Below are positions 9,961 through 62,990 of a stretch of DNA of 64,000 nucleotides, piece after piece. How positions within the stretch are numbered: the first letter of the stretch is position 1; every line of letters starts with the position of its first letter. The notes under the pieces are model-generated. The model made no database searches. It was not told where the DNA came from and was given only the letters and a program-made list of their open reading frames with translations. The position numbers were made by a program, and so were the translations under genes. Source of the stretch: Sphagnum magellanicum (lineage: Eukaryota > Streptophyta > Sphagnopsida > Sphagnales > Sphagnaceae). The DNA is taken from contig CM038912.1 of NCBI GenBank assembly GCA_021904315.1, positions 25,146,949-25,210,948 on the forward strand, written 5' to 3'.

Positions 9961-10800
9961 CATAAAGTCTTCAAATTGGGAAATCTCAGGATGAGATCCT
10001 TAAATTCGCACATCAACTTTCTTTTGTTTTCACCTACAAGCTACCACCTCTAGCGTATGTTATGTGCACTAAGTATATGGCCTAGGGCGAGGGGGCTATT
10101 GGCTATGGTTATTGGCAACTGGTTATGGCTATTGCTTTTGACTATGGTTATTGCTTATGACCATTTGTTATTGGTTGTTGCCTGTGGCATATGGCTATTT
10201 CTATTGTATATTGGCCATTGGTTATTATAAGGTTTAATTTGTAGGGTTTAGGTTTGGGTCTTTAAAGATTTTGTATTTTTGGGTTTAGGTGTTGGGCTTT
10301 CAATGGTTAAGTATAAGGGGTTTTAAGGTTCAATTTTTAGGGTCTAAGTTTGGGCTTTTTAGGCCTTGAATTATAGGGTTTTTTTTCTTGCGTTTTGTAG
10401 TTTAGTTTTGAGGTTTAAGAGTTAGGGTTTACAACTTGATTTCTTAGGGTTTAATTTTTAGGTTGATGTTTGGGTCTTTTAAAGGTTAATTTTTGAGTTT
10501 AATGAAGGTAGTTCTAAGGTTAAGGTTAAAGTGATGATATGTACTTGTGTAAAATATTGGAGTTAAAACATCAAGATTTAAAACTAAGACTAAAAAACAT
10601 GACTATCGAGTCCAATTAATGATAAAAACATTATTAAAAATGTTGATTTAGGGGTTTTTTTTGTGTATGTAAAATGATGAAATTAAAGATTAGCTCAGAG
10701 GGGTTGGTTTAGGGTGTAAACTTGGACAACCAATGTGGATTATATAAAGAGAAGGTTTTTCTAATTTTTTTGGTTTTGTTTTCATTTCAAGCCTTGAAAG

Positions 10801-11010
10801 ATGTTTTTTTCAAGCTTTTCAAATGGACTTTATTCAAGTAACTATGATTTCACCTCATTTTCAAATGATGATGACATTTTGAAAAATATCAATCAAAATG
10901 ATCTTGTTATTTTTCAAATGATGGCATCGATGGTTTCTAACTCCAATGACTTGTTTACTTCACATGAGATGAAGGAAGGGGGTGGGGCAATATATGGACC
11001 CAATTGTTAG
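10801..11010 (+). CDS. Short ORF conserved between the two Harbinger-like copies
   Basis: A 69-codon frame that opens MFFSSFSNGLYSSNYDF and contains KNINQNDLVIFQMM, then a HEMKEG segment. The counterpart at 59396 keeps most residues and the same start, while surrounding DNA is more diverged, suggesting past selection on the protein. It lies 30-90 bp downstream of a TATATAAAGAGAAGG-like sequence (about 10742), so it is probably the first exon of the element's gene. It may be the transposase N-terminus or a separate accessory protein as in other Harbinger elements. Function not known. Confidence 0.4.
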   Translation: MFFSSFSNGLYSSNYDFTSFSNDDDILKNINQNDLVIFQMMASMVSNSNDLFTSHEMKEGGGAIYGPNC

Positions 11011-11985
11011 TGTTAAAGGTGTCTTTGTTACAATGTGAATCACACTAACATTATTCAAGAATTTGATGAACTTTACATTTTAAAAGTTTGATGAATTGGC
11101 TTTTCAAATGATTCTTATCATTAAAGCCAATGCTAGATTCATAAGTGAATCTTCTTTTTCATATTTATTTTCAATTTTAAGATAGGTTTGATTTTTGAGT
11201 TAAAGGTTAAAGTTAGAGATTAGGATATGATTTTAAAGGTTAGGGTGAGGCTTGAAAGGAAAGATTTTTGTGTTTTAGTGTTAAGGATTAATGTTTAAGG
11301 TTTCTATTGTAGGTTTTTTAAGTTTATGATTCAAGTTAGGGTTTTCATGTTTCCAATTTAGGGATTTAGGTCTGATTTTTAGGGTTTAGGATTTAGGTTT
11401 GGGTTCTCATGTTTACAATTTAAGGTTTTAGTTTGGAATTATAGGTTTTTAGGTTTGATTTTTAGGGTTTAGATATAAAGTTTATTATTTAGGGATGATG
11501 AATAGGTTTTTGATTTTTAGATTTGATTTTTAGGGTTTAATGTTTAAAGGTTTAACGTTATGGTTTTCAAGTTTAATTTTTAGGGTTTATTGTTTAAGGG
11601 ATAAGGTCAAGGTTTTTACATCTGATTTTTTGAATTTAAAAAAAAGGTTTATTATTTAAGGATTAAGGTTAGGGTTTTAAGTTTGAGTTTTAAGGTTTTA
11701 GTCTAATGTTTGGGGCTTGGGGATAGAGTTTATGGTTAGGGTTTTCAGGTTTCATCTTGTTTTCCATCATAGTAGGTGAAGTTTGAATTATATCAAACAA
11801 GTTATCAAAATTAATGCCCAAACATCTTCTCAACATCATTATTTACATGAAACATGGCGAAATCACTAGATGTATGATGCTTTCATGTGGAATTAGTCCA
11901 AAAAAAAATTGTGATGATGCATTGTTCATTGCATCAAACATCAACCACACGAATACAAATGAAATTTGATGGCCCACATTGAAGG

Positions 11986-12508
11986 ATGGGGTTGCCTCAA
12001 GTACACATTTGCAAAGAATTGCCTCAGTGTATTAGATTCATTGATGGCACCTTGATCAAGATTCACAATCCTTATTGGAATGAGGCCTACCATACATGGT
12101 TTAAAGGATGGAAGAAGATTTATGCAATGAATAAAATTATCATTCTAAACCACCATGGATTGTTCATCTACATAGACATTGGTTCCCCAATTCTTATTAT
12201 GATGTGAATATCCTATGACATTCAAATGTGTACAAAGATTGACATTAATATTTCTCACATGGAGATGAATATTTTGAATACCTTTCCAAAGATTTGAGTT
12301 ATGCATGTGAAAAAATGTTTATATGTGCATGAGAGGACAATACAAGTTTCTTTTAGATGCTAACCATGCTATGATGAGAACATATAACAAAATGCATTCA
12401 AGTTTCAAGGTGCAATTAAATTGGGGTATAGGTGGGTTCCATCCCACAAAACCAAACTATTCACATTTGTTCCAAATCAATGTTCGGCAATTTTCATTCC
12501 TTGGTTGA
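11986..12508 (+). pseudogene. PIF/Harbinger transposase remnant, copy 1
   Basis: The frame at 11986-12207 contains CIRFIDGTLIKI (first catalytic Asp of the DDE_Tnp_4 family), NPYWNEAYHTWFKGW and ILNHHGLFIYIDIG. A frameshift follows; in the next frame SYYDVNI supplies the second Asp. From 12323 another frame gives YNKMHSSFKVQLNWGIGGF, the C-terminal block. In relatives I remember, an acidic residue precedes WGIGG; here it is Asn. With two frameshifts and stops the enzyme is dead. Its role would have been cut-and-paste transposition in the nucleus. Confidence 0.7.
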
Positions 12509-12665
12509 AAACCAATGTTAGTTTTCAATCGAGTTTTCAATGAGAACTGCCATGAAAACCTTCTTGATAGTTCTCATTGGAAATGAGAGCTGCCCAAGTT
12601 TTCACTAAGCATCAAACTTGAAAACCAAACCAATTTTCACATTTTAGAAAAGGTTTGGTTTTCAT

Positions 12666-14239
12666 GGTAAAAATTTAAAAAATTAACTTGTAATAAATAA
12701 AAAAAAGTAAAAAGTAATTAATAGTAAAATAAAATATAATAAATAATAAATAATAGTAAATAATAAGTAGAAAGTAGGAAAATAAATTTAAAAATAAAAC
12801 TTACTATTTATGGAGGTGGCCACCACATTAAGGTTAGGGGTTAGTGTTTAAGTTTGTTTGTAAGAAGGCTCCAAGCTCCCTCTAGGGCCCACTTTGCTCC
12901 TATGCAATTTTACACCTCCACATTTGCTCTCCTATACTTTAAACACTTTTGTTTTTTTGTTTTTTTTGTTAAAAGTCTTTTAAATCTTCTTAGTTGTTTT
13001 ATGTTTTTTTTTTCCTAGTTTTTTGTTTTTGTTTTATAGGGTTTGTAATATCAATTTGTAGTTTGTAAATTGTGTTTTCTTCTTTGTGACATTTGGTTTG
13101 TTCCAGTGTGTGTTGTTGTTGTTCCTTAATGTGGCTACTCCCCACTTATTGCTCCAGGTCATTGTTCCCCGCTTGTTACTCCTTTGCATGGTTCCCCACT
13201 TGCTATTCCCTATGTGTGGTTACTCTTCAATTGTTCCTCCAAGTCGCTCCTCTTTCATGTGGCTCCCCACTTGTGCTCCACATAGTTGTTCCCCTGTGTG
13301 GTTGCTCCTCACTTGTTACTCCCTTGCATGGCTCCCCACTTATTACTGTGCTTGTTGCTACACCATGTCCTTACTCCCCGCTTGTTGCTCCCCCGGTGGT
13401 TGCTTTTCACTTGTAGCTTTTGCTTTTTTTTAGGCCCCTTATTGTTGCTACTCCTTGCTTGTTGCTAATCTCGTGGCTACTCCTCGCTTGCTTGTTGTTC
13501 CCTAAAGTACTTTGTAATACTTGAAGGATTCAAGAAGTAATACCTAAAGTACTCTGTAATACTTGAAGGATTCAAGAAGTAATACCTAAAGTACTCTATA
13601 AAACTTGAAGGATTCAAGAAGTGTTAAAAGCACGGCTTGAAATAAGTCTAAAAGTATTCCTGAAGGCTGGTTTAGTATTTGGAGGAAGGCTTGTAGTATT
13701 TGTGAAGGCTTGAAGTATTGAAGAAAGTTTGAAGCATTCAGAGGAAGATAATTGTTTAGTACTTGGGAAAGCTTGAAGTATTCAAGAAATACTTAACCAT
13801 TTAAGGTTGTAAGGGAGTGTAAACTCAATATAAAGAACCACTCATGCTTAAAGGCCTAGTCCTTACATAGTCCTTGGTGAAATTTTTTTTGGTTGCGTAG
13901 GACACGTGGTTTTAAATCATTAGCTAGGTTTGTACCCGCATTGACCAACATTTCAAAATCCGTTTAGGGTGACTTTGGCACAAAACGTGTATTTCATGGT
14001 CATTTCTTTCTTAAGGTGCGAACTAACGAGTATTATGAGCCTAGCCTCTAAGTTGTTGTCATCAAATGTTTGCGCACTTGCCTCTTACAACATTTATGTC
14101 TACTAAGAGTTTTTGTTTAGGTAGGTGCTTCTATGTGTTTTGTCTCTTTATTTGGCTATGCACGCACGATTAAGCAACCAAGTTGCTTCTAATGTAATTT
14201 CATTTGTGTTTTGTAAGTATTATCCAACACACCATCTTA
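12666..14239. other. Gene-free stretch with low-complexity repeats
   Basis: 12690-12800 is an AAATAATAA-type low-complexity run. 13086-13500 is made of degenerate GCTCCCCACTTGTTGCTCC-like units (open in several frames, encoding Cys/Leu/Pro-rich nonsense). Nothing else is recognisable up to 14239 apart from the 42-bp array at 13501. Confidence 0.6.
13501..13622. repeat. 42-bp tandem repeat, about three units
   Basis: Units starting CCTAAAGTAC at 13501, 13543 and 13585, nearly identical, each with CTTGAAGGATTCAAGAAGT. The following 150 bp contain diverged TTGAAGTATT/CAAGAA variants, suggesting an older, larger array. Confidence 0.85.
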
Positions 14240-20542: not shown

Positions 20543-21101
20543 TTATGATCTATCCTTTAAGTCGGTTATAAAGTTGTAATTCACCTGAGGCTACTCAGGC
20601 GGAAATGTTAATACTTAAGTTTGATTTGATTCTATTTAAAAGTCTAATAGAAGTGAAACTAAATAAAGATGTATTAGGACTACATCCTAAAAATCTTACA
20701 AGTACATGATTAGTGCTTAGAGATTCTTCTACATACTAACTTAACCTTGTCATGGCGAAATGCTATTGTTAATCATGGGCTTGTATTCCCTATATATCAA
20801 TAAATCACATCTAATTCTACATCCCCTTTCCTTTCTCTACCACATAAAAGGGATAATGTACTTTAAAAGGTTTACTAGGTGCTTAACTGATTAAGCGCTA
20901 CATCAACTGAAATAAAGAAGTACTATATGCCTAAAAATATCACAAAAGTTGATTCAACTATTAATAATCACTACTTGGAGGCTTATAAGCATTCAAATCA
21001 TTAGTACTAAGGAAAATTATGGAACTAAAGCTTAACTAATTGTTGAATTATAATCCATGGCTCATAATAGATCTAAACAATGATTTCATAAATTTAATGA
21101 T
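20543..21101. other. Spacer up to the retroelement target site
   Basis: No gene or repeat recognised. It ends in ATGAT (21097-21101), the left half of the retroelement target duplication. Confidence 0.6.
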
Positions 21102-21257
21102 TGTCATGGCCTAAGATATTTTAGGACTAGTATGGTCCAGGGTTATAAAAGGAGATAGTCTGGGGAACAACCTTTCAGCAAATCAACACCAGTTGATGGA
21201 TCAATAAAGCTTGTCTTGTCTTGTAATTTTCCATTTGTTTGTAGTCGATCCATAACA
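21102..21257 (+). repeat. 5' LTR, 156 bp
   Basis: Begins TGTCATGGCC, ends CCATAACA. Contains TATAAAAG at 21144-21151, a predicted transcript start near 21177 (33 bp from the TATA start) and a poly(A) signal AATAAA at 21203-21208, giving a very short R region. It differs from the matching 156 bp of the 3' LTR (26964-27119) at 12 positions, all transitions. Confidence 0.95.
21144..21177 (+). promoter_or_regulatory. LTR core promoter: TATA box and predicted transcript start
   Basis: TATAAAAG at 21144 in the context GGTTATAAAAGGAG. The usual 25-35-bp spacing puts the start close to the A at 21177, which is also where the sequence becomes complementary to the primer-binding site. The same box lies at 27006-27013 in the 3' LTR. 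Confidence 0.6.
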
Positions 21258-21259
21258 AT

Positions 21260-21269
21260 TTGATCTGCT
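21260..21269 (+). other. Primer-binding site, apparently for self-priming
   Basis: TTGATCTGCT starts two bases after the LTR. Its reverse complement AGCAGATCAA matches 9 of 10 bases of 21177-21186 (AGCAAATCAA), the predicted 5' end of the element's own RNA; the mismatch is a G-to-A transition. It does not resemble the 3' end of initiator Met or other common plant primer tRNAs. Self-primed reverse transcription is established for Tf1/sushi-type elements, and this arrangement has the same geometry. Confidence 0.5.
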
Positions 21270-21402
21270 CCTTCTTCTTGTTTGTTTGTTTTGTTGTTTC
21301 AGTAAGTAGCTAGAGGTATCTTGGGGTGAAACTTGGAAAGGTTATAGAAGACTATAGGACACTTCTACTCTCAAAGTTTCAAAAGAAAAGGATATGTTTT
21401 AT

Positions 21403-21712
21403 GAGTGTTAAGAGCTTTTGAAAACTTTGTGTCAGATCTGGTTTTTTGGTCATATCTCCTTTGTTTAAACTTTTTTGGGTCTGTAACTTTGTGATCTTAT
21501 AGATCATATAGGAATATATGTGTGAGAGAAATTTCATGTCATTTGGACTTGTATTGTGAGAGTTAAGAGCTTTTGAAAACTCTATGTCAGATCTGGTTTT
21601 TTGGTCATATCTCCTTTGTTTAAACTTTTTTGAGTCTGTAACTTTGTGATCTTATAGATCATATAGGAATACATGCGTGAGAGAAATTTCATGTCATTTG
21701 GATTTGTATTGT
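21403..21712. repeat. 155-bp duplication in the retroelement leader
   Basis: Two head-to-tail units (starting GAGTGTTAAGAGCTTTTG at 21403 and GAGAGTTAAGAGCTTTTG at 21558) differ at only a few positions. Both lie in the untranslated leader upstream of gag, with the next GAG at 21713. Possibly a duplicated packaging or structural RNA segment, or simple slippage. Confidence 0.85.
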
Positions 21713-21791
21713 GAGAGATCTAAGCATCTGAAGTTTCAGTCTCAGTAGGAGTTTGAAAATTGGGAAGCGCAAAAGTGTGAGAATTACCACC

Positions 21792-22762
21792 ATGGATAAC
21801 TCAGAATCAAACATCGATCTCACTCAAATCCTCACCGCCCTTCAGCACCTTCAACAAGAAAATGCCGTGCTTAGAGACTTGGTGACCCGCCTACAGAATC
21901 AGCCACCACCTCCTACCCCAGTACTTCTTGTTCTTGCAATGGTCGCCCCAGAGCCCAAGATCAGTCTGCCAGAAAAGTTTGATGGAACACACCTCAAATT
22001 TCGAGGCTTTGTTAACCAGGTACGCCTGATCATGCAACTACACCCCTATCATTATTTTGATGACACCACTCGTGTAGGATTCATTGGAACCCTACTCACT
22101 GGGTCAGTTGCAGCATGGTTTGCTCCCATCCTGGAAACATATCCCCTCTCCTACAAGATTTCAACGCCTTTATGGCGGAATTTGAAGCAGTGTTTGGGGA
22201 CAGTGACAAGGCCAGGACTTCAGCCAACAAGCTACGTCGCCTCTAGCAAAGGACATGTTCGGCCATCGTCTACGCTTCAAAATTCAGGCAGTTTGCCTGT
22301 GACATCAATTGGGGAGAAGCTGCCTTGATTGATCAGTTTCACTATGGGCTTCGTGATGATGTTCAAGATCTTTTGTTGACACTCGCAGACCCTTCTTCCT
22401 TCAGTGAAGTTACCACCCAGGCAATTCGGTGCAATAATCGTTTGTTTGAACGTCACCAAGAAAAGAAAGTCACCTCCAACGCCCAGTTTTGGAACAGTTG
22501 GCCTACTACGCTCCCCTTAGTTCCTCAAACAACACCAGTTGCCCGACCTGCCTCTTTTGGACTTGCTCCGATGCAGATCAACACAGCTAAGTTTAAATCT
22601 TTGACAGAAGCCGAGAAACTTCACCGAAGGATAAATAATCTATGTCTTTATTGTGGCAACCTAGGGCATATAGCTCGTCAGTGCCGTCAAAAGCTTGTCA
22701 AACTTCAAGTACAAGCTGTGGAAACTCCCCAAGAATTGGAAAATAAAAACATCCAATCATAG
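21792..22762 (+). pseudogene. gag: Chromovirus gag, one frameshift and one stop
   Basis: ATG at 21792 in a strong context (ACCATGG). It is followed by a coiled-coil start (ILTALQHLQQENAVLRDLV), a Pro-rich linker, a capsid-like part (PEKFDGTHLKFRGFVNQV) and, at the end, the zinc knuckle CLYCGNLGHIARQC (C-x2-C-x4-H-x4-C). The reading frame shifts near 22145-22151 and an in-frame TAG lies at 22244-22246, most simply a CAG-to-TAG change; the frame then stays open to TAG at 22760. Gag would assemble the cytoplasmic particle and bind genomic RNA. It overlaps the open part of the pol frame by 16 bp (22747-22762). Confidence 0.85.
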
Positions 22763-25510
22763 TAGGAGCCGTGCGACTATATCTCACCCAACACCACCTT
22801 TGCAAAGGCTCTTGTTCCGTTGTTGGTCCCAGTCCCAATTTCACTCAGTATGTGGACATCATTCGTATTCCAGAAGACATACCACAAGTGTCAGCTTTGG
22901 TGGACTCCGGCACCACCTCTTCTTTCATCGACCAAACATTTGTCGTCCAACACAACATCCCTGTGATCAAAAAGTCAACCCCTGTTCTGGTAGAGGTTAT
23001 TGATGGGAGAACCATTGCTTCTGGTGCAATCACACACGAGACAACCCCTTTAGAACTTTGTATTGGCAAGCACACGGAGAAGATTGTTCTCAACATCATC
23101 TCCACCCTTCACCATCCCATCATCCTTAGTCTACCTTGGCTAGAAGCACATAACCCTATCATTGATTGGCGGTCTAGAACCCTCACCTTTAGTGCACAAC
23201 GGTGCACCTCTCAAGAACCCCACGTTCAGAAAAACACTTTGTCCAATCCTGCCAAGAACCCTGTGGTCAAGAACCCAAAGAGGGTCGGAACCAATTCCAG
23301 TTTTTTCAAGTTTGTTATGTCAAGTCCTGCAGTCAAGAACCCCCAGTTGGTCAGAACTAAACCTTGTCCTGTCAAGAACCTTGTCAAAAATCCTGCCCAG
23401 AAAACCAACCCTGTCCAGATCTTCGTTGATAGAGCTGCCCCTTTCTATCGGGCTGCTAAGAATCTTCAAGTCTTTGCCATCCATGTCAACCCAGCCAACA
23501 ACACAAACCCCCCATCAGAACTAACACCTATCAACCTTCCCGAGAAGTACAAGGATTTTGTTGATGTTTTTGAAAAAAATAATACTGATCAGCTCCCCGC
23601 CCATAGTCCATATGACTGCCCAATTGATCTAGAAGAAGGACACTCACCACCCTTTGGTCCTATCTATGGCCTATCGGAACCGGAACTCCAAGCCCTGCGT
23701 GATTACCTTACTGAAAATCTTGTCAAGGGGTTCATTCAGCAATCCAAGTCTCCAGCCGGCGCCCCAATTTTGTTTGTCAAGAAGAAGGATGGCTCCCTTC
23801 GACTTTGTGTGGATTATCGTGGACTCAACAAGATAACCAAAAAGAATCAATATCCCTTGCCCTTGATTTCAGGTCTCCTGGATCAACTACGTACCGGGAA
23901 GATCTTCACCAAGCTTGACCTCCGTGGAGCCTACAATTTACTTAGGATTCGTCCCGGTGATGAATGGAAGATAGCTTTCCGCACACGCTACGGCCACTTC
24001 GAATACACGGTCATGCCCTTCGGCCTCACCAATGCACCCGTAGTCTTTTAGCATCTGATGAATGATATCTTCCGAGATTACATGGATGAATTTGTCATGG
24101 TCTATTTGGATGACATTTTAATCTTTTCCAAGGACCAGGAAATCCACGACAAACATGTACGATTGGTGCTTGCGACGCTCCGAGAACATGGTTTATACGC
24201 CAAGTTGGAAAAATGTGAATTCGACAAATCTTTAGTGGCGTTCCTCGGCTACGTGATCTCTCCAGATGGCATTTTCATGGACAAGTCAAAGGTCAAGACC
24301 ATCCAGTGTTGGGCTACTCCATCCTTGGTCAAGGACGTTCAACGCTTCCTGGGGTTTGCCAACTTCTATCGTCGGTTTATCAAAGGCTACTCCAAGATCG
24401 CAACATCGTTAATAACCCTGACTTGCAAAGACAAGCCCTTCTCGTGGAACCCAACGGCCCAGGCTACTTTTGATACTCTCAAGATGGCATTCACCTCTAC
24501 ACCCATCCTGATACATCCCGATCCTACCAAGCCATTCATTGTGGAAACGGACACTTCAGATTTTGCCTTGGGAGCTATTCTATCTCAATTTGGAATAGAT
24601 GGGTTACTGCATCCAGTTGCTTTCTATTCACGGAAATTAACTAGTGCCGAAATCAACTACCAGGTCTATGATAAGGAACTCCTAGCAATCATCACGGCAT
24701 TCGAGCAGTGGAGACCGTATCTTGCCAGAGCTTAACATCGAATCCAAGTTCTGACAGATCACAAGAATCTCCTTTATTTCACAACTACTCGGACCTTAAA
24801 TCGTTGCTAGGCACGCTGGTCTATCTTCCTAGCTGATTTCGACTTTGAGATTCAGTATTAACCCGGCACTTAGCAAGGGAAAGCTGACGCGCTATCTCGT
24901 TGTTCAGAATATGAACTTCGAGCGGGGGATGAGGCCTACGGTCAGCAGAACTAGACTTTACTCAACCCCGAGCAATTTTGAGTTGCAGTAACAATCAGCA
25001 CCCTCCCAGATTCATACCTTGTCAGGGACATCAAGATGGCAACTGAGGAAGACACCTGGGCTACCAACATCAAGAAGGAACTCCAGGAACGACCAAGGAA
25101 CCCAAATCGTGATGACCTGGATCAGTTTGAGTAGCAAGACGGACTTCTCCTTCGAAGTAACCTGATTTATGTACCCGAAGGACCTATACGCCTAAAAATC
25201 CTGAGAGAATGTCACGACAACACCCTGGCGGGTCACTTTGGAATAGCACGGACTCACGAACTAGTGTCAAGGACTTACTGGTGGCCCAAAATGAACAAGC
25301 TACTATAGGAGTATGTCAAGTCTTGTGATACATGTGCTCGATCCAAGGCTCCCAGACATCACCCGTTTGGACTCCTACAGCCTCTGTCGATTCCTAGCCG
25401 ACCTTGGGGATCTATTGCAATGGACTTCATCACGGACCTCCCTACTGTCAGAACCAAGAATTCAATACTGGTAGTGGTCGATCGACTCACAAAAATGGCC
25501 CATTTCACCC

Positions 25511-25671
25511 TAGTGATGACATTCTTCATTTTACACATTAAAATTTTTTAAAATTCTTCATTTAGCACCTTGTCAAAACATTTTTCGGCGCGAATTTTAA
25601 TGAATTTAAACGAATTTTCGTGCTTTTTTGGGCTTCCATAACATTCCCGCACCAAGAATGTCATAACTATG
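25511..25671. mobile_element. 161-bp Mutator-like MITE inserted in integrase
   Basis: Left end TAGTGATGACATTCTT. The right end reverse-complements to TAGTTATGACATTCTT after two bases, 15 of 16 identical. CATTTCACCC is duplicated on both sides (25501-25510 and 25672-25681), a 10-bp target duplication in the range typical of Mutator-like elements. Element plus duplication adds 171 bp, a multiple of three, so the integrase frame resumes in phase, although the insert itself carries stops. The interior is AT-rich with TTTAAACGAATTTTCG-like sequence and no coding capacity. Confidence 0.8.
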
Positions 25672-26651
25672 CATTTCACCCCTTGTTCCAAATCAATCAT
25701 GGTAGAAGAGACAGTTCAGTTAATTCTGGACGGGATCATCCGACTGCATGGACTCCCCAAGGAAATTGTGTCTGACAGAGGTCCTCAGTTTGCATCCAAG
25801 TTCTGGCATTATCTATTTGAGCTTCTTGGAGTTGACATTCGGCTATCTTTAGTTTTCCACCCTGAGACAGATGGACAAACCGAACGGACAAACCAGACAC
25901 TCGAGCAATACCTTCGCTGCACTGTGAACTACCAACAGGACGACTGGCTGGACTTACTATCTCAAGCAGAGTTTGCTTATAACAACACAACACATGCATT
26001 GACCGAAATCAGTCCATTCTTTGCCAATTACGGTTTTCATCCCAGGTTCAGCCTTGAAATTCCTGGAGACTCCGTAAACCCCTTGGCTGAAGAGAGGGCC
26101 ACGAGGCTTGGACAAGTTCAACAGAACCTTATGGCAAAACTCAAGCTAACACAGGAGTGGCAAAAGAAGCAAGCAGACCACCGACGCAAGGACCATCCAA
26201 ACTTCAAGGTTGGAGACAAGGTCTAGCTTCTCAGAAAGAACATTGCTACCACTCGCCCATGTGCCAAGTTGGATTATAAGCGCCTCGGACCTTTCAAAAT
26301 TGCCAAATTGGTTGGTCTAGTGGCTTGCCAGTTGGAGCTTCCACCCTAGTTCAAAATCCACAATGTTTTCCATGTCTCCTTGCTTGAGCCCTATCATGAA
26401 AACCCGATCCCAGAACGTTATCAAGAACCCCCAGCTCCAGTCGAAATTGAAGGCCAAGAAGAGTTTGAAGTTCAGGAGGTCTTGGACTCCAAGAAGATTC
26501 GTGGAAAGCTCCTGTACCTTGTCTTTTGGTGAGGTTATCCTCCTTCTGAAGCTACTTGGGAGCCTGTTGGAAACCTAGTTCATGCCCAAGACTTAATTAA
26601 TCGGTTTCACCAACGGTATCCTAATAAACTGGCTCCATCTGGAAGATGTCG

Positions 26652-26667
26652 CTTGAGGAGAGGATAA
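26652..26667 (+). other. Polypurine tract
   Basis: CTTGAGGAGAGGATAA immediately precedes the TG of the 3' LTR. The purine run GAGGAGAGGA also encodes the last residues of Pol, and TAA is its stop codon. This would prime plus-strand DNA synthesis. Confidence 0.75.
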
Positions 26668-26963
26668 TGTCATGGCCTAGGATATTTTGGGATACTTTGG
26701 GCAATGTCATGTCCTAGGATATTTTGGGATACTTTGGGCAATGTCATGTCCTAGGATATTTTGGGATACTTTGGGCAATGTCATGTCCTAGGATATTTTG
26801 GGATACTTTGGGCAATGTCATGTCCTAGGATATTTTGGGATACTTTGGGCAATGTCATGTCCTAGGATATTTTGGGATACTTTTGGCAATATCATGGCCT
26901 AGGCTATTTTTGGATACTTTTGGCAATATCATGGCCTAGGATATTTTGGGATACTTTTGGCAA
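26668..26963. repeat. Eight 37-bp tandem units within the 3' LTR
   Basis: Units start at 26668, 26705, 26742, 26779, 26816, 26853, 26890 and 26927; the LTR's own copy follows at 26964. Each opens TGTCATG(G/T)CC or TATCATGGCC and ends in GGCAA. Units 2-5 are identical and carry GTCC for GGCC; units 7-8 share TATCATGG with the LTR's own start. The 5' LTR has a single copy, so the array arose after integration. Confidence 0.95.
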
Positions 26964-27119
26964 TATCATGGCCTAGGATATTTTGGGACTAGTATGGTTC
27001 AGGGTTATAAAAGGAGATAGTCTAGGGAACAACCTTTTAGTGGATCAACACCAGTTGATGGATCAATAAAGCTTGTCTTGTCTTGTAATTCTCCACTTGT
27101 TTGTAGTCGGTCCATAACA
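26668..27119 (+). repeat. 3' LTR, expanded to 452 bp
   Basis: The last 156 bp (26964-27119) are the LTR proper. The first 296 bp are exactly eight 37-bp copies of the LTR's own first 37 bases. The LTR ends CCATAACA and is followed by the target duplication ATGAT. TATAAAAG lies at 27006. Confidence 0.95.
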
Positions 27120-27124
27120 ATGAT

Positions 27125-58902: not shown

Positions 58903-59395
58903 TGGATATTGGCTATGGATATTGGCCATTGGTTATTTTAGGGTTTAATTTGTACGGTCTAGGCTTGGGTCTTTAAAGATTTTATTTTTTTGGGTTTAGG
59001 CCTTGGGCTTTCAAAGTTTAAATACTAAAAGTTTTAAGGTTCAATTTTTAGGGTCTAAGTTTGGGCTTTTGAGGGCTTGAATTTATGGTTTAGTGAGGTT
59101 AGTCCTAAGGTTAAGGTTAAAATGATGGTATGTGCTTGTGTAAAATATTGGAGTTAAAACATCACAATTTAAAATTAAGACTTAAAAACATGACCATGGA
59201 GTGTAGTTAATGATGAAAACATTATTAAAAATGTTGATTTAGGCTCATTTTTTTTTCTATATGTAAAATGATGAAGTTAAAAACTAACCCAAAGGGATTT
59301 GTTAAGGTTAGATCTTAAGATGTAAATTTCGACAACCCATGTGGATTATATAAAGGGGAGGTTTTTCGTTTTGTTTTCATTTCCAGCCTTGAAAG

Positions 59396-59611
59396 ATGTT
59401 TTTTCCAAGCTTATCAAATGGATTTTATTCAAGTAACTATGATTTCACCTCAGTTTTAAATGATGATGTAATTTTGAAAAATATCAACCAAAATGATCTT
59501 GTTATTTTTCAAATGATGGTGTTGATGGCTTCTAGCTCCAATCATTTATTTACTTCATATGAGATGAAGGAAGGGGTGGGGCAATATATGGACTTGATTG
59601 TTGGTGTTTAA
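59396..59611 (+). CDS. Short ORF conserved between the two Harbinger-like copies
   Basis: 71 codons opening MFFPSLSNGFYSSNYDF, with KNINQNDLVIFQMM and SYEMKEGVGQYMD. The start and most residues match 10801-11010; this copy keeps a slightly longer C-terminus (the other has lost the frame after MKEG). A TATATAAAGGGGAGG promoter-like sequence precedes it at about 59347. Probable first exon of the transposon gene, function unknown. Confidence 0.4.
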   Translation: MFFPSLSNGFYSSNYDFTSVLNDDVILKNINQNDLVIFQMMVLMASSSNHLFTSYEMKEGVGQYMDLIVGV

Positions 59612-60406
59612 GATGTCTTTGATACATGTGAACCACACTAACATTATTCAAGAGTTTGATGAATTTTACATTGTAAGAGTTTAGCAAGTTGGCTTTTCAA
59701 GTGATCTTCACCGGTAAAACCAATGCTAGATTCACAAGTGAATTTTCTCTTTCATATTTAATTTCAATGTCAAGTTAGGTTTGATTTTGAGTTAAAGGTT
59801 GAAGTTAGAGATTAGGATATGATTTTAAAGCTTAGGGTGAAATTTGAAAGGAAGAGTTTTTACATTTTAATGTTAAGGATTAGTGTTTTTAGGTGTAGGT
59901 TTATAGAGTTTATGATTCAAGTTAAGGTTTTTGTGTTTCTAATTTAAGGTTTAAAATCTGATTTTTAGGGTTTAAGATTCAAGTTTGGGTTCTCATGTTC
60001 ACAATTTAGGGTTTTTGTTTGGAATTATAGGTTTTTAGGTTTGATTTTTAGGGTTTAAATATAAAGTTTACTACTTAGGGGTTATGAATAAGTTTATGAT
60101 TTTTAGATTTGATTTTTAGGGTTTAAAAATAAGGTTTCATGTTTAAGGTTATGGTTTTCAAGTCTAATTTTTAGGGTTTATTGTTTAAGGGATAAGGTTA
60201 AGGTTTTTACATCTAATTTTTTGAGTTAAAAAAAGGTTTACTATTTAAAGATTAAGGTTAAGGTTTTTAAAGATTAAGATTAAGGTTTTAAGCTGAAGTT
60301 CCAATTGTATCAAGCAAGTTATCAAAGTTAATGCCTAAACAACATTTCCTAACAGTCATTATTTTCATGAAACATGACAACATCACTATATGTATGATGC
60401 CTTCAT

Positions 60407-60980
60407 GTGGAACTAGTCAACAAAAAAATTGAGATGATGCATTATTCATTGCATCAAACATCAATAATGCGTTTGCAAATGAAATTTGATGGCCCACATC
60501 AAAGGATGGGGTTACCTTGGGTACACATTTGCAAAGAGGTGCTTAGGTGTATTGGATTCATTGATGGCACCTTGATCAAGATCCCGAATCCTTATTGGAA
60601 TGAAGCCTACCATACAAGCTTTAAAGGGTGGAGAGGATTTATACAATGAATAACACTATCATTCTAAACCACCATGGATTGTTCATATACATAGACATTG
60701 GCTACCCTAATTCCTATTACGATGTGAATATCTTTCGACATTGAAATGTGTACAAAGATTGACATTAATATCTCACACATGGAGATGATTATTTTGGAGT
60801 ACCTTTCGAGAGATTTGAAAAATGCGGGTGAAGAAATGTTTATGTGCATGAGAGGACAATGAAAGTTTCCCTTATATGCTAATCATGCTATAATGCAAAC
60901 ATATAACAAAATGCATTCAGGTTTCAAAGTACACGTAAAGTGGGGTATAGGTGGGTTCCATCCCACAAAACGAAAACATT
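60407..60980 (+). pseudogene. PIF/Harbinger transposase remnant, copy 2
   Basis: The frame at 60407-60649 gives HICKEVLRCIGFIDGTLIKI and PNPYWNEAYHTSFKGWRG. After a frameshift the next frame has NNTIILNHHGLFIYIDIGYP, then SYYDVNIFRH with the second catalytic Asp, a stop, and HGDDYF. The C-terminal block reads KVHVKWGIGGFHPTK with Lys at the place of the expected acidic residue. Better preserved than copy 1 in the central domain but still broken by at least one frameshift and stops. DDE_Tnp_4-type nuclease of the PIF/Harbinger superfamily. Confidence 0.72.
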
Positions 60981-61200
60981 CACATTTGTTCCAAACCAGT
61001 GTTGGGCGGTTCTCACCTGTCAGGTGAAAACCACCAGAGTCGGTTTTCAGTTCGAAACTGATGATGAGAACCGTCATGAGAACTTTTTTGGCAGTTCTCA
61101 TTGGAGATGAGAATCGTCTGATGAGAACCACCTGGCATCAAATCTGAGAACCAGACCGATTCTGACATTTTGAAAAGAGTTTGACTTTCATGGTAAAAAA

Positions 61201-62990
61201 TTAAAAAACTAAGTAGTAAATAAAAAGTAAGAAGTAAAAGTAAAAAATAGTATACAAATCTAGCTGCAAACTGATACCCGCCTAGCAGAGTTGTTTTTTT
61301 TTTTTTTTTTTTTTTTGGGTCATTCGTGTACTGTAGTTGGAGCATCTTTTCTTTTTGTGTGAAACTTAGCCGAATTTATTTTTTGGGGCTGCGACCCTAC
61401 AAATGCTTTTTTGGGAATTTTTTGAAAAATTTGCCCCAAAAGCAAGGATTTCGCACTGGGTTCGTTAAATGTAGAAGGCATGCTCTGCAGGTCGCCAAGT
61501 GGTAGCAGGATTACAATATTTTTATTTTATTGTCTTACTTGTCATGCATATAATGCTAATGCCTGCTCCTGCAAGTCGTCAAATAGTAGCAGGAATACAA
61601 CTTTTTGTTTTATTGTTTTAATTGTCATGTTTCCATTTAATGATAAGTCCTTCTCGGGATGCTAACCAATAATGCAACAGCAATTGTTTTTTAAAAAATG
61701 ATTGAGTTGAAGAGGTGATCATCTAGAAGATGTAAATCTAAATCTGGCTGCCAAAATTAAATGAATATTTTAAAATTAAAAAAATCCTTTTCTATTGTTT
61801 GCTACCTTACTGGAACACAACACAAAAATCTAGTGATTTTTATTTTAAAATTCTGACATTTTGATGACGAAAAACCTAAAAATGTTTTTTTTTCACTATT
61901 TTCCAAAAAGCTTTTGGTAGAGTGTACACACCCTTAATCTTTAAACACCATGCATCAAAATGACTGATTAAAATCACTGTTTGTCTGATGTGACTTGTCA
62001 TAGTGTCATTCATAGTAATTAGATCATGTCTGCCCTCACAACTTTTCTTTTTAGTTTTTAAAGGAGCCATATTGAGTGACCCATCAGCAATTGTTTTTGG
62101 AACATTGGGCATTCCCCCTGTAGAAGCACTTTTATGGACCCCCAGTTGCAAAATAGAAATAAATGTGTATCCCTGGATTTTACCTGGTTAGTTTATATTA
62201 AGGGGAGTTTCAACTTTGGGCAAACTATATGGCATAAAACCCAGGTGCTATTGGGAACAAAGTTGGGAATGCATCTGGGAACACTTTGAGAACTTGATGA
62301 GAACTGTTCGAGAACCAGGGGAAAAAAAATGTCCCTGTCACCCCCCACCAAAAGAAAAAAAATTGAATTGTTTATGAGTGTATGCTGAGCCTTCCCATTG
62401 GCTGCATGAAATTTCTCTTTTCAAAATTGTTTGTCACCATTTTTCCCCTAGGCTAATGCAGGGGCAGAATTTTGCAGACATAAAACATGCTTGGGGAACA
62501 AATTGGGAACCCAATGGGAACTTGATGGGAACAAAGGAAAAATGAAAAAAATCCTCTCCCCAACCCCCCCACCCCCTCCCCCAAAAAAACTTGAAAGAAA
62601 AAATCAAAGCACTTTGAGTGCATGCTGACCCTTCCCATTGGCATGAAATTTCATTGAATAATTACTTGTTTATCAAAAACATATGCTGTGAAGTGTTCAA
62701 GCTTTATGAACTTTCCCAAACCTTTTTTTCTTGCCAAAGCTCCAAAACTTGTACAGTATTACATATAATAAAGGATGTCATGAAGCATCATTTCATTCAT
62801 CTGTCTCATCATCCATCCATCCAATCATCCATCCATTTCGTCATAGTTTGTTTATTTTGACAAGGCAAAGAAAAAGTGGAATACAGACGTGACGCAGCGA
62901 AAAAAGCAATAGGAAGAGATAACACACATGCCAAAGCCCTGCAATCATAAGCATCCATCGGAAACTGAGCCAACTTCAAAAGGAACTCAC
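61201..62990. other. Spacer with small duplications
   Basis: A T24 run lies at about 61292-61316. 61479-61645 holds a ~84-bp tandem pair (CTGCAGGTCGCCAAGTGGTA versus CTGCAAGTCGTCAAATAGTA). 62240-62660 holds a ~238-bp diverged pair (GGGAACTTGATGGGAAC-type and GCTGANCCTTCCCATTGGC). 62815-62835 has a CATC run. No gene recognised. Confidence 0.55.

Follow-up and report, generated by a model that had tools for sequence, protein, structure and literature searches.

A degenerate Tf1/sushi-like chromovirus in a moss genome that very probably primed reverse transcription from its own RNA

The 64,000-nt stretch of Sphagnum DNA analysed here (the window) holds a decayed moss Tf1/sushi-like chromovirus which, judging from sequence comparisons, very probably self-primed its reverse transcription from its own RNA. 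We infer that RNA polymerase II would start about 33 bp past the TATA box, and that in most sampled copies the RNA would therefore begin with AGCAGATCAA or a one-base variant of it. This 5' end would fold back onto a site 2 bases past the long terminal repeat (LTR), the complementarity being observed directly and the fold predicted. By analogy with Tf1, the element's RNase H would then cleave the RNA just past the paired stretch, and the 3' end so released would prime minus-strand DNA. The complementarity is kept up among the copies of the window's own family (F1) and recurs with other letters in a second family (F2), as though pairing had been maintained between families while the sequence of the primer changed.

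Results and discussion

Anatomy of the element

The element extends from 21102 to 27119 of the window, with the target-site duplication (TSD) ATGAT on both sides. Its features were assigned as follows:

21097-21101 (left) and 27120-27124 (right), + strand: target-site duplication ATGAT, read from the sequence.
21102-21257, + strand: 5' LTR of 156 bp, TG...CA, TGTCATGG...CCATAACA, delimited by its repeat with 26966-27121, by the match of its start at 26668-26692 and by the TSD.
21144-21150, + strand: TATA box TATAAAA, from the motif only.
21177-21186, + strand: putative self-primer AGCAAATCAA, expected to form nt 1-10 of the element RNA, from its complementarity to 21260-21269 and the 40-copy tally, with the RNA start placed by its distance from the TATA box.
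21258-21259, + strand: AT dinucleotide between the end of the 5' LTR and the site, from the sequence.
21260-21269, + strand: predicted primer-binding site TTGATCTGCT, 2 nt past the LTR, from complementarity and the same layout in F2.
21390-21699, + strand: leader in which a 155-bp direct repeat stands in tandem (94% identity), from repeat comparison.
21732-22762, + strand: gag in two broken frames, with a DUF4939 stretch and a CCHC zinc knuckle, from open reading frames (ORFs) and Pfam.
22747-24735, + strand: pol with protease, reverse transcriptase and RNase H, and a stop at 24049-24051, from ORFs, Pfam and PDB matches.
25309-25551, + strand: upstream open piece with no Pfam match, putatively integrase, from ORFs.
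25642-26226, + strand: integrase piece, rve E 9.7e-5, under the Pfam cut-off, from ORFs and Pfam.
26461-26610, + strand: chromodomain with one internal stop in the window copy, read from the translation and supported by Pfam Chromo (PF00385) matches in three further copies.
26655-26667, + strand: purine-rich tract presumed to precede the 3' LTR, read from the sequence.
26668-27119, + strand: 3' LTR of 452 bp, its U3 lengthened by some nine repeats of 37 bp, from repeat comparison.

In the window copy, the DUF4939-like stretch of gag was matched at E 1.6e-5, still under the cut-off of Pfam, and zf-CCHC at E 2.2e-4, barely past it. DUF4939 is a sushi/PEG10-type gag family. The ORFs at 22247 (gag) and 22747 (pol) overlap, the second lying in the -1 frame with respect to the first, and the best PDB matches of pol were 4ol8 and the Ty3 polyprotein 7q5b. 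The chromodomain motif was present in 13 of the 20 copies scanned, and the three other copies submitted to Pfam all returned Chromo at E 9.1e-14 to 2.7e-13, with a Tf2-1-like SH3 domain also scoring in each. A DUF4939-like gag, the CCHC knuckle, a -1-frame pol and a chromodomain at the C terminus of integrase are all shared with the Tf1/sushi group, and it is through these shared features, not a tree, that the element resembles Tf1/sushi (Tcn1-type) chromoviruses. Because its frames are broken, the window copy is taken to be dead.

The length of the 3' LTR is due to the start of U3 being repeated about nine times. The unit of these repeats is 37 bp, sometimes 46 bp, and its number is unequal between the two LTRs of a single insertion (1 versus 9 in the window, 2 versus 9 in L018 and 4 versus 15 in L025), an inequality which arises although both LTRs come from one template. 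The window also holds a 2.3-kb stretch twice, at 10444-12726 and 59034-61252, with 80% identity.

Pairing in the window copy

An earlier note on this DNA had proposed that 21260-21269 is complementary to 21177-21186 at nine of ten positions and that this partner lies 33 bp downstream of the TATA box. Coordinates, letters and spacing were all confirmed, TATAAAA starting at 21144, and the sole mismatch sets A21181 opposite C21265. LTR and leader were shuffled with dinucleotides kept and with the start of the site free to fall 0-5 bases past the LTR. Pairing at 9/10 or better was then reached in 11 of 3000 shuffles when the partner had to lie 25-40 bp after the TATA box, and in 94 of 3000 when it could lie anywhere in the LTR. 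Taken alone, the pairing of the window copy is therefore suggestive only, and the second of these frequencies is what speaks for chance complementarity in one decayed copy.

Pairing across the F1 family

The host genome (438,994,042 bases in 31 contigs, the window being on contig C6) was searched with 21144-21400 as the query. The top 40 of the 509 candidates that this returned were scored across the leader, and one further match covered the LTR only; both sites could be read in 40 copies, the window among them. Four LEAFY-like loci were also seen in this genome, on contigs C1, C2, C3 and C13; a piece from one of them had as its nearest PDB entry the moss protein 4bhk (FLORICAULA/LEAFY homolog 1, 198 bits), ahead of Arabidopsis LEAFY 2vy1 at 183 bits. 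In the F1 sample, which leans toward window-like copies because the best-scoring 40 of 509 candidates were used, Watson-Crick pairing was complete (10/10) in 14 copies and reached 9 in 21, 8 in 4 and 7 in 1. With G-U allowed, the corresponding counts were 23, 15, 1 and 1. The earlier note had cautioned that so short a match would need support from the family, and this was obtained, with 35 of the 40 copies pairing at 9 or 10. The 14 perfect copies argue against chance, though they are related by descent. They also reach the threshold used by Neumann 2019 (PMC6317226), namely complementarity over 10 bp or more that begins 0-5 bp past the LTR, which the window copy does not.

Position 21181 carries the pairing G in 38 of the 40 copies and A in two, including the window, so that the mismatched base of the window is a rare change. 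The transition-biased decay attributed to the element was likewise found, with 103 transitions versus 7 transversions in 19 LTR comparisons. The 17 same-strand LTR pairs lying within one long stretch, a set that omits L022, which is on the opposite strand, and the short locus L046, gave 92 versus 6. Changes at the primer and the site of F1 copies are also mainly transitions.

Co-variation of the R start and the site, which the earlier note had proposed looking for, was not convincing inside F1. At the pair 21178/21268, both sides have changed to A-T in two copies and one side has changed in ten (seven on the R side, three on the site side), and with two two-sided against ten one-sided changes, within-family co-variation was dropped as proof. 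Low conservation at both sites was dropped as well, C-to-T decay explaining it equally well. In one F1 copy (G000:C16:4250844-4256630; L033, L101, L106), gag is interrupted by roughly 4.3 kb containing two tRNA-like genes, as if a tRNA-gene carrier had inserted there.

A second family with a different primer

Querying the host genome with a piece of gag gave at least 151 matches (150 of 325 candidates scored), some of them 36-58% identical, and the upstream stretches of 20 divergent matches were fetched. Perfect inverted 10-mers are commonplace in these stretches, at least one being present in 16 of the 20 and most being unrelated to one another; what marks out F2 is recurrence at the LTR end, CTCTCGTCAA and its complement recurring at one place in four stretches. 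F2 comprises 11 of the 20 stretches, with gag 38-47% identical to that of the window. Its LTR ends in ...CGCAACA and is followed by GT and then by the site TTGACGAGAGT, the exact complement of the F2 primer ACTCTCGTCAA, which lies 32 bp downstream of TATGAATA. This LTR end was confirmed by a 3' LTR and a 5-bp TSD in all three elements examined. Ten of the 11 stretches were readable at both sites and paired at 10/10 (four), 9/10 (three) or 8/10 (three). The same pair was the top match of an unguided scan of the 10 aligned F2 stretches, with a mean pairing of 0.91 against 0.84 for the next. Before their 3' LTR, F2 elements carry a G-run tract, GAAGGGGGGG, and their U3, too, has internal repeats (upstream stretches L064, L060 and L072, with L077-L079).

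The F1 and F2 primers differ at five of ten positions and their sites differ to match, while the letters that follow the primer, CAACACCAG, are common to both. Mean pairing of a primer with the site of its own family is 9.2 of 10 in F1 and 9.1 in F2, as against 4.6 and 4.7 when the families are crossed. Chance complementarity is made very unlikely by F2, in which the layout is repeated with another sequence at 10-11 nt, and we give that explanation next to no weight. The self-priming part of the earlier proposal of a self-priming plant chromovirus is thus well supported by sequence, in that copies restore the full match and the F2 primer and site differ in step.

Three further groups are less clear. 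In L074 (F5, 58% gag identity), AGTAGACCAA and TTGGTTTGCT pair at 8/10, with C-G replacing one T-A pair of F1. F4 (three stretches) and F3 (three of four) carry another type of primer, ending ..TTCAA, with 7-9 of 10 pairs at sites that were placed by eye on the F1/F2 layout, their LTR ends being unconfirmed. When the LTR ends of F4 were sought from downstream DNA, no repeat was found in two F4 stretches. The unguided scan put the eye-read F3 and F4 pairs outside the three top matches for either group, and for this reason the two groups count as weak support for self-priming. When the five groups were compared, using 17 of the 20 divergent stretches, own-family pairing ranked first of 120 assignments, a ranking that rests partly on the hand-placed groups, as the F1-F2 contrast does not. 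The stretches left out were L058, in which no R start was located, L063, whose alignment lacked both sites, and L076, where no LTR was seen.

Priming by tRNA

Ordinary tRNA priming, in which a host tRNA would pair with the site through its 3' end, making the resemblance to the R start incidental, would be in keeping with the tRNA-Met sites given for most plant chromoviruses in the passages on primer sites of PMC6317226. The window copy, however, has no TGG within the first 60 nt past the LTR. The earlier claim that the F1 site matches the 3' end of no common tRNA was also upheld, the best match being 6/10 among 40 tRNA genes, a partial set drawn from 62 scored genes at about one per distinct score and covering 16 named kinds. 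In this set, the maximum for tRNA 3' ends was 6/10 for F1, F2 and F5 and 7/10 for F4, and the tRNA-type site of Tekay, CRM, Reina and Galadriel (TGG start, 3'-end complement) was not seen. Furthermore, the match to the R start is kept in F1 and F2 with different letters. We consider ordinary tRNA priming to be very improbable.

In some Ty1/copia lineages an internal tRNA fragment serves as primer, and the same might have held here. Such half-tRNA priming is known in plants from Osser, Bryco, Gymco-II and Bianca, as listed in PMC6317226, and one F4 site matches a tRNA-Ala gene internally at 9/10, the internal maximum for that group. Yet the best internal match of the F1 and F2 sites, as of F5, is 8/10 across the 16 named kinds of the same partial set, and half-tRNA priming would leave the matched differences at the R start unexplained. 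The likelihood that we attach to it is just as slight.

Predicted fold of the leader RNA

When the RNA from 21177 to 21300 was folded, a primer-site helix of 8-10 bp was present in the predicted fold of 30 of the 40 F1 copies and missing from the lowest-energy fold in the other 10, the window among them; medians of pairing probability cover 39 of the 40 copies, one being omitted for a gap. Stability of the leader fold was unremarkable, z being 0.05, -1.43 and -0.94 in three copies, and with values between 0.05 and -1.43 its stability was dropped as proof. The full 'pretzel' of Tf1 type was not seen in the F1 leader. Its upstream duplex, adjoining the site, was reached by 2-7% of shuffles in four copies and its downstream duplex by 48-82%, so that the model would weakly support the former and appears to do no better than shuffles for the latter.

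Priming does not follow from complementarity and a predicted helix alone, and the paired ends could have functioned in genome packaging or dimerisation, in shielding the 5' end of the RNA or as a regulatory hairpin. The site nevertheless sits exactly at the position required of a primer-binding site, 2 nt past the LTR end, in both F1 and F2, and no tRNA-type site was seen at the LTR end. A non-primer role appears to us unlikely, if somewhat less so than the use of a tRNA, and self-priming from the RNA 5' end is the reading that we prefer.

Relation to known self-priming elements

Self-priming is known from elements of yeast and fish, and the earlier note had also suggested that finding it in this element would extend the mechanism to plants. 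That claim falls, the host being a moss: in its passages on primer sites, PMC6317226 already predicts self-priming for most elements of the moss and club-moss Tcn1 clade as well as for the TAR lineage of Ty1/copia. The F1 element is therefore a well-supported addition to the known self-priming elements and not a first for plants. Neumann 2019 grouped the moss and club-moss Tcn1 elements with Tf1/sushi and predicted self-priming for the majority of them, which are without tRNA sites; in the same passages no other group of plant chromoviruses self-primes (PMC6317226). The relevant passages of Novikova 2010 give evidence of neither tRNA-priming nor self-priming for SM-Tcn1 of Selaginella (PMC2864245). 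In these passages, self-priming in plant chromoviruses rests on sequence prediction. The presence of Tf1/sushi elements in non-seed plants, the 'pretzel' and the -1 frame are described in PMC10085805. Our literature search, in the main texts of mostly open papers, found no study of self-priming in Sphagnum. A relative was also looked for in viral contigs, where none of five pattern stretches was confirmed.

Like F1, the Tcn1 clade, as described in parts of PMC6317226 and PMC2864245, combines a non-seed-plant host, a chromodomain Ty3/gypsy element, kinship with Tf1/sushi and the lack of a tRNA site; the present data differ in that pairing was tallied in 40 copies and changes in step between families. 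In Tf1, Tf2 and Tj1 of fission yeasts, too, the first bases of the RNA match a site downstream of the 5' LTR (PMC4600332, which covers Tj1, and PMC10085805). According to the sections of PMC10085805 that deal with them, fission-yeast Gags are without CCHC, whereas F1 has a CCHC gag, and -1 frameshifting predominates in Tf1/sushi elements outside fission yeast, in agreement with the -1 frame of the F1 pol. The fission-yeast elements, by contrast, have a single ORF or an in-frame stop. Self-priming is there called common to the group that includes sushi-ichi and vertebrate Tf1/sushi elements (PMC10085805). These belong to a different host kingdom, and their likeness to F1 is one of features and not of sequence comparison. 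Lastly, the TAR lineage (Houba, Osr-1) shares with F1 a plant host and a prediction of self-priming in PMC6317226, but belongs to a different superfamily, Ty1/copia.

Conclusions

F1 and F2, and less clearly three more groups of the same moss genome, keep their pairing with different letters, and evidence of this kind can tell a helix in use from a coincidental match. As a tentative proposal, which we think has the odds against it, every cycle of reverse transcription in moss Tf1/sushi-like elements may rewrite the site from the RNA 5' end. Whenever the transcript start drifted, the change would then be copied into the site, and several self-primer sequences with the same layout would thereby have accumulated in one genome. 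The moss families form a natural series in which to study how an element swaps its primer without losing it.
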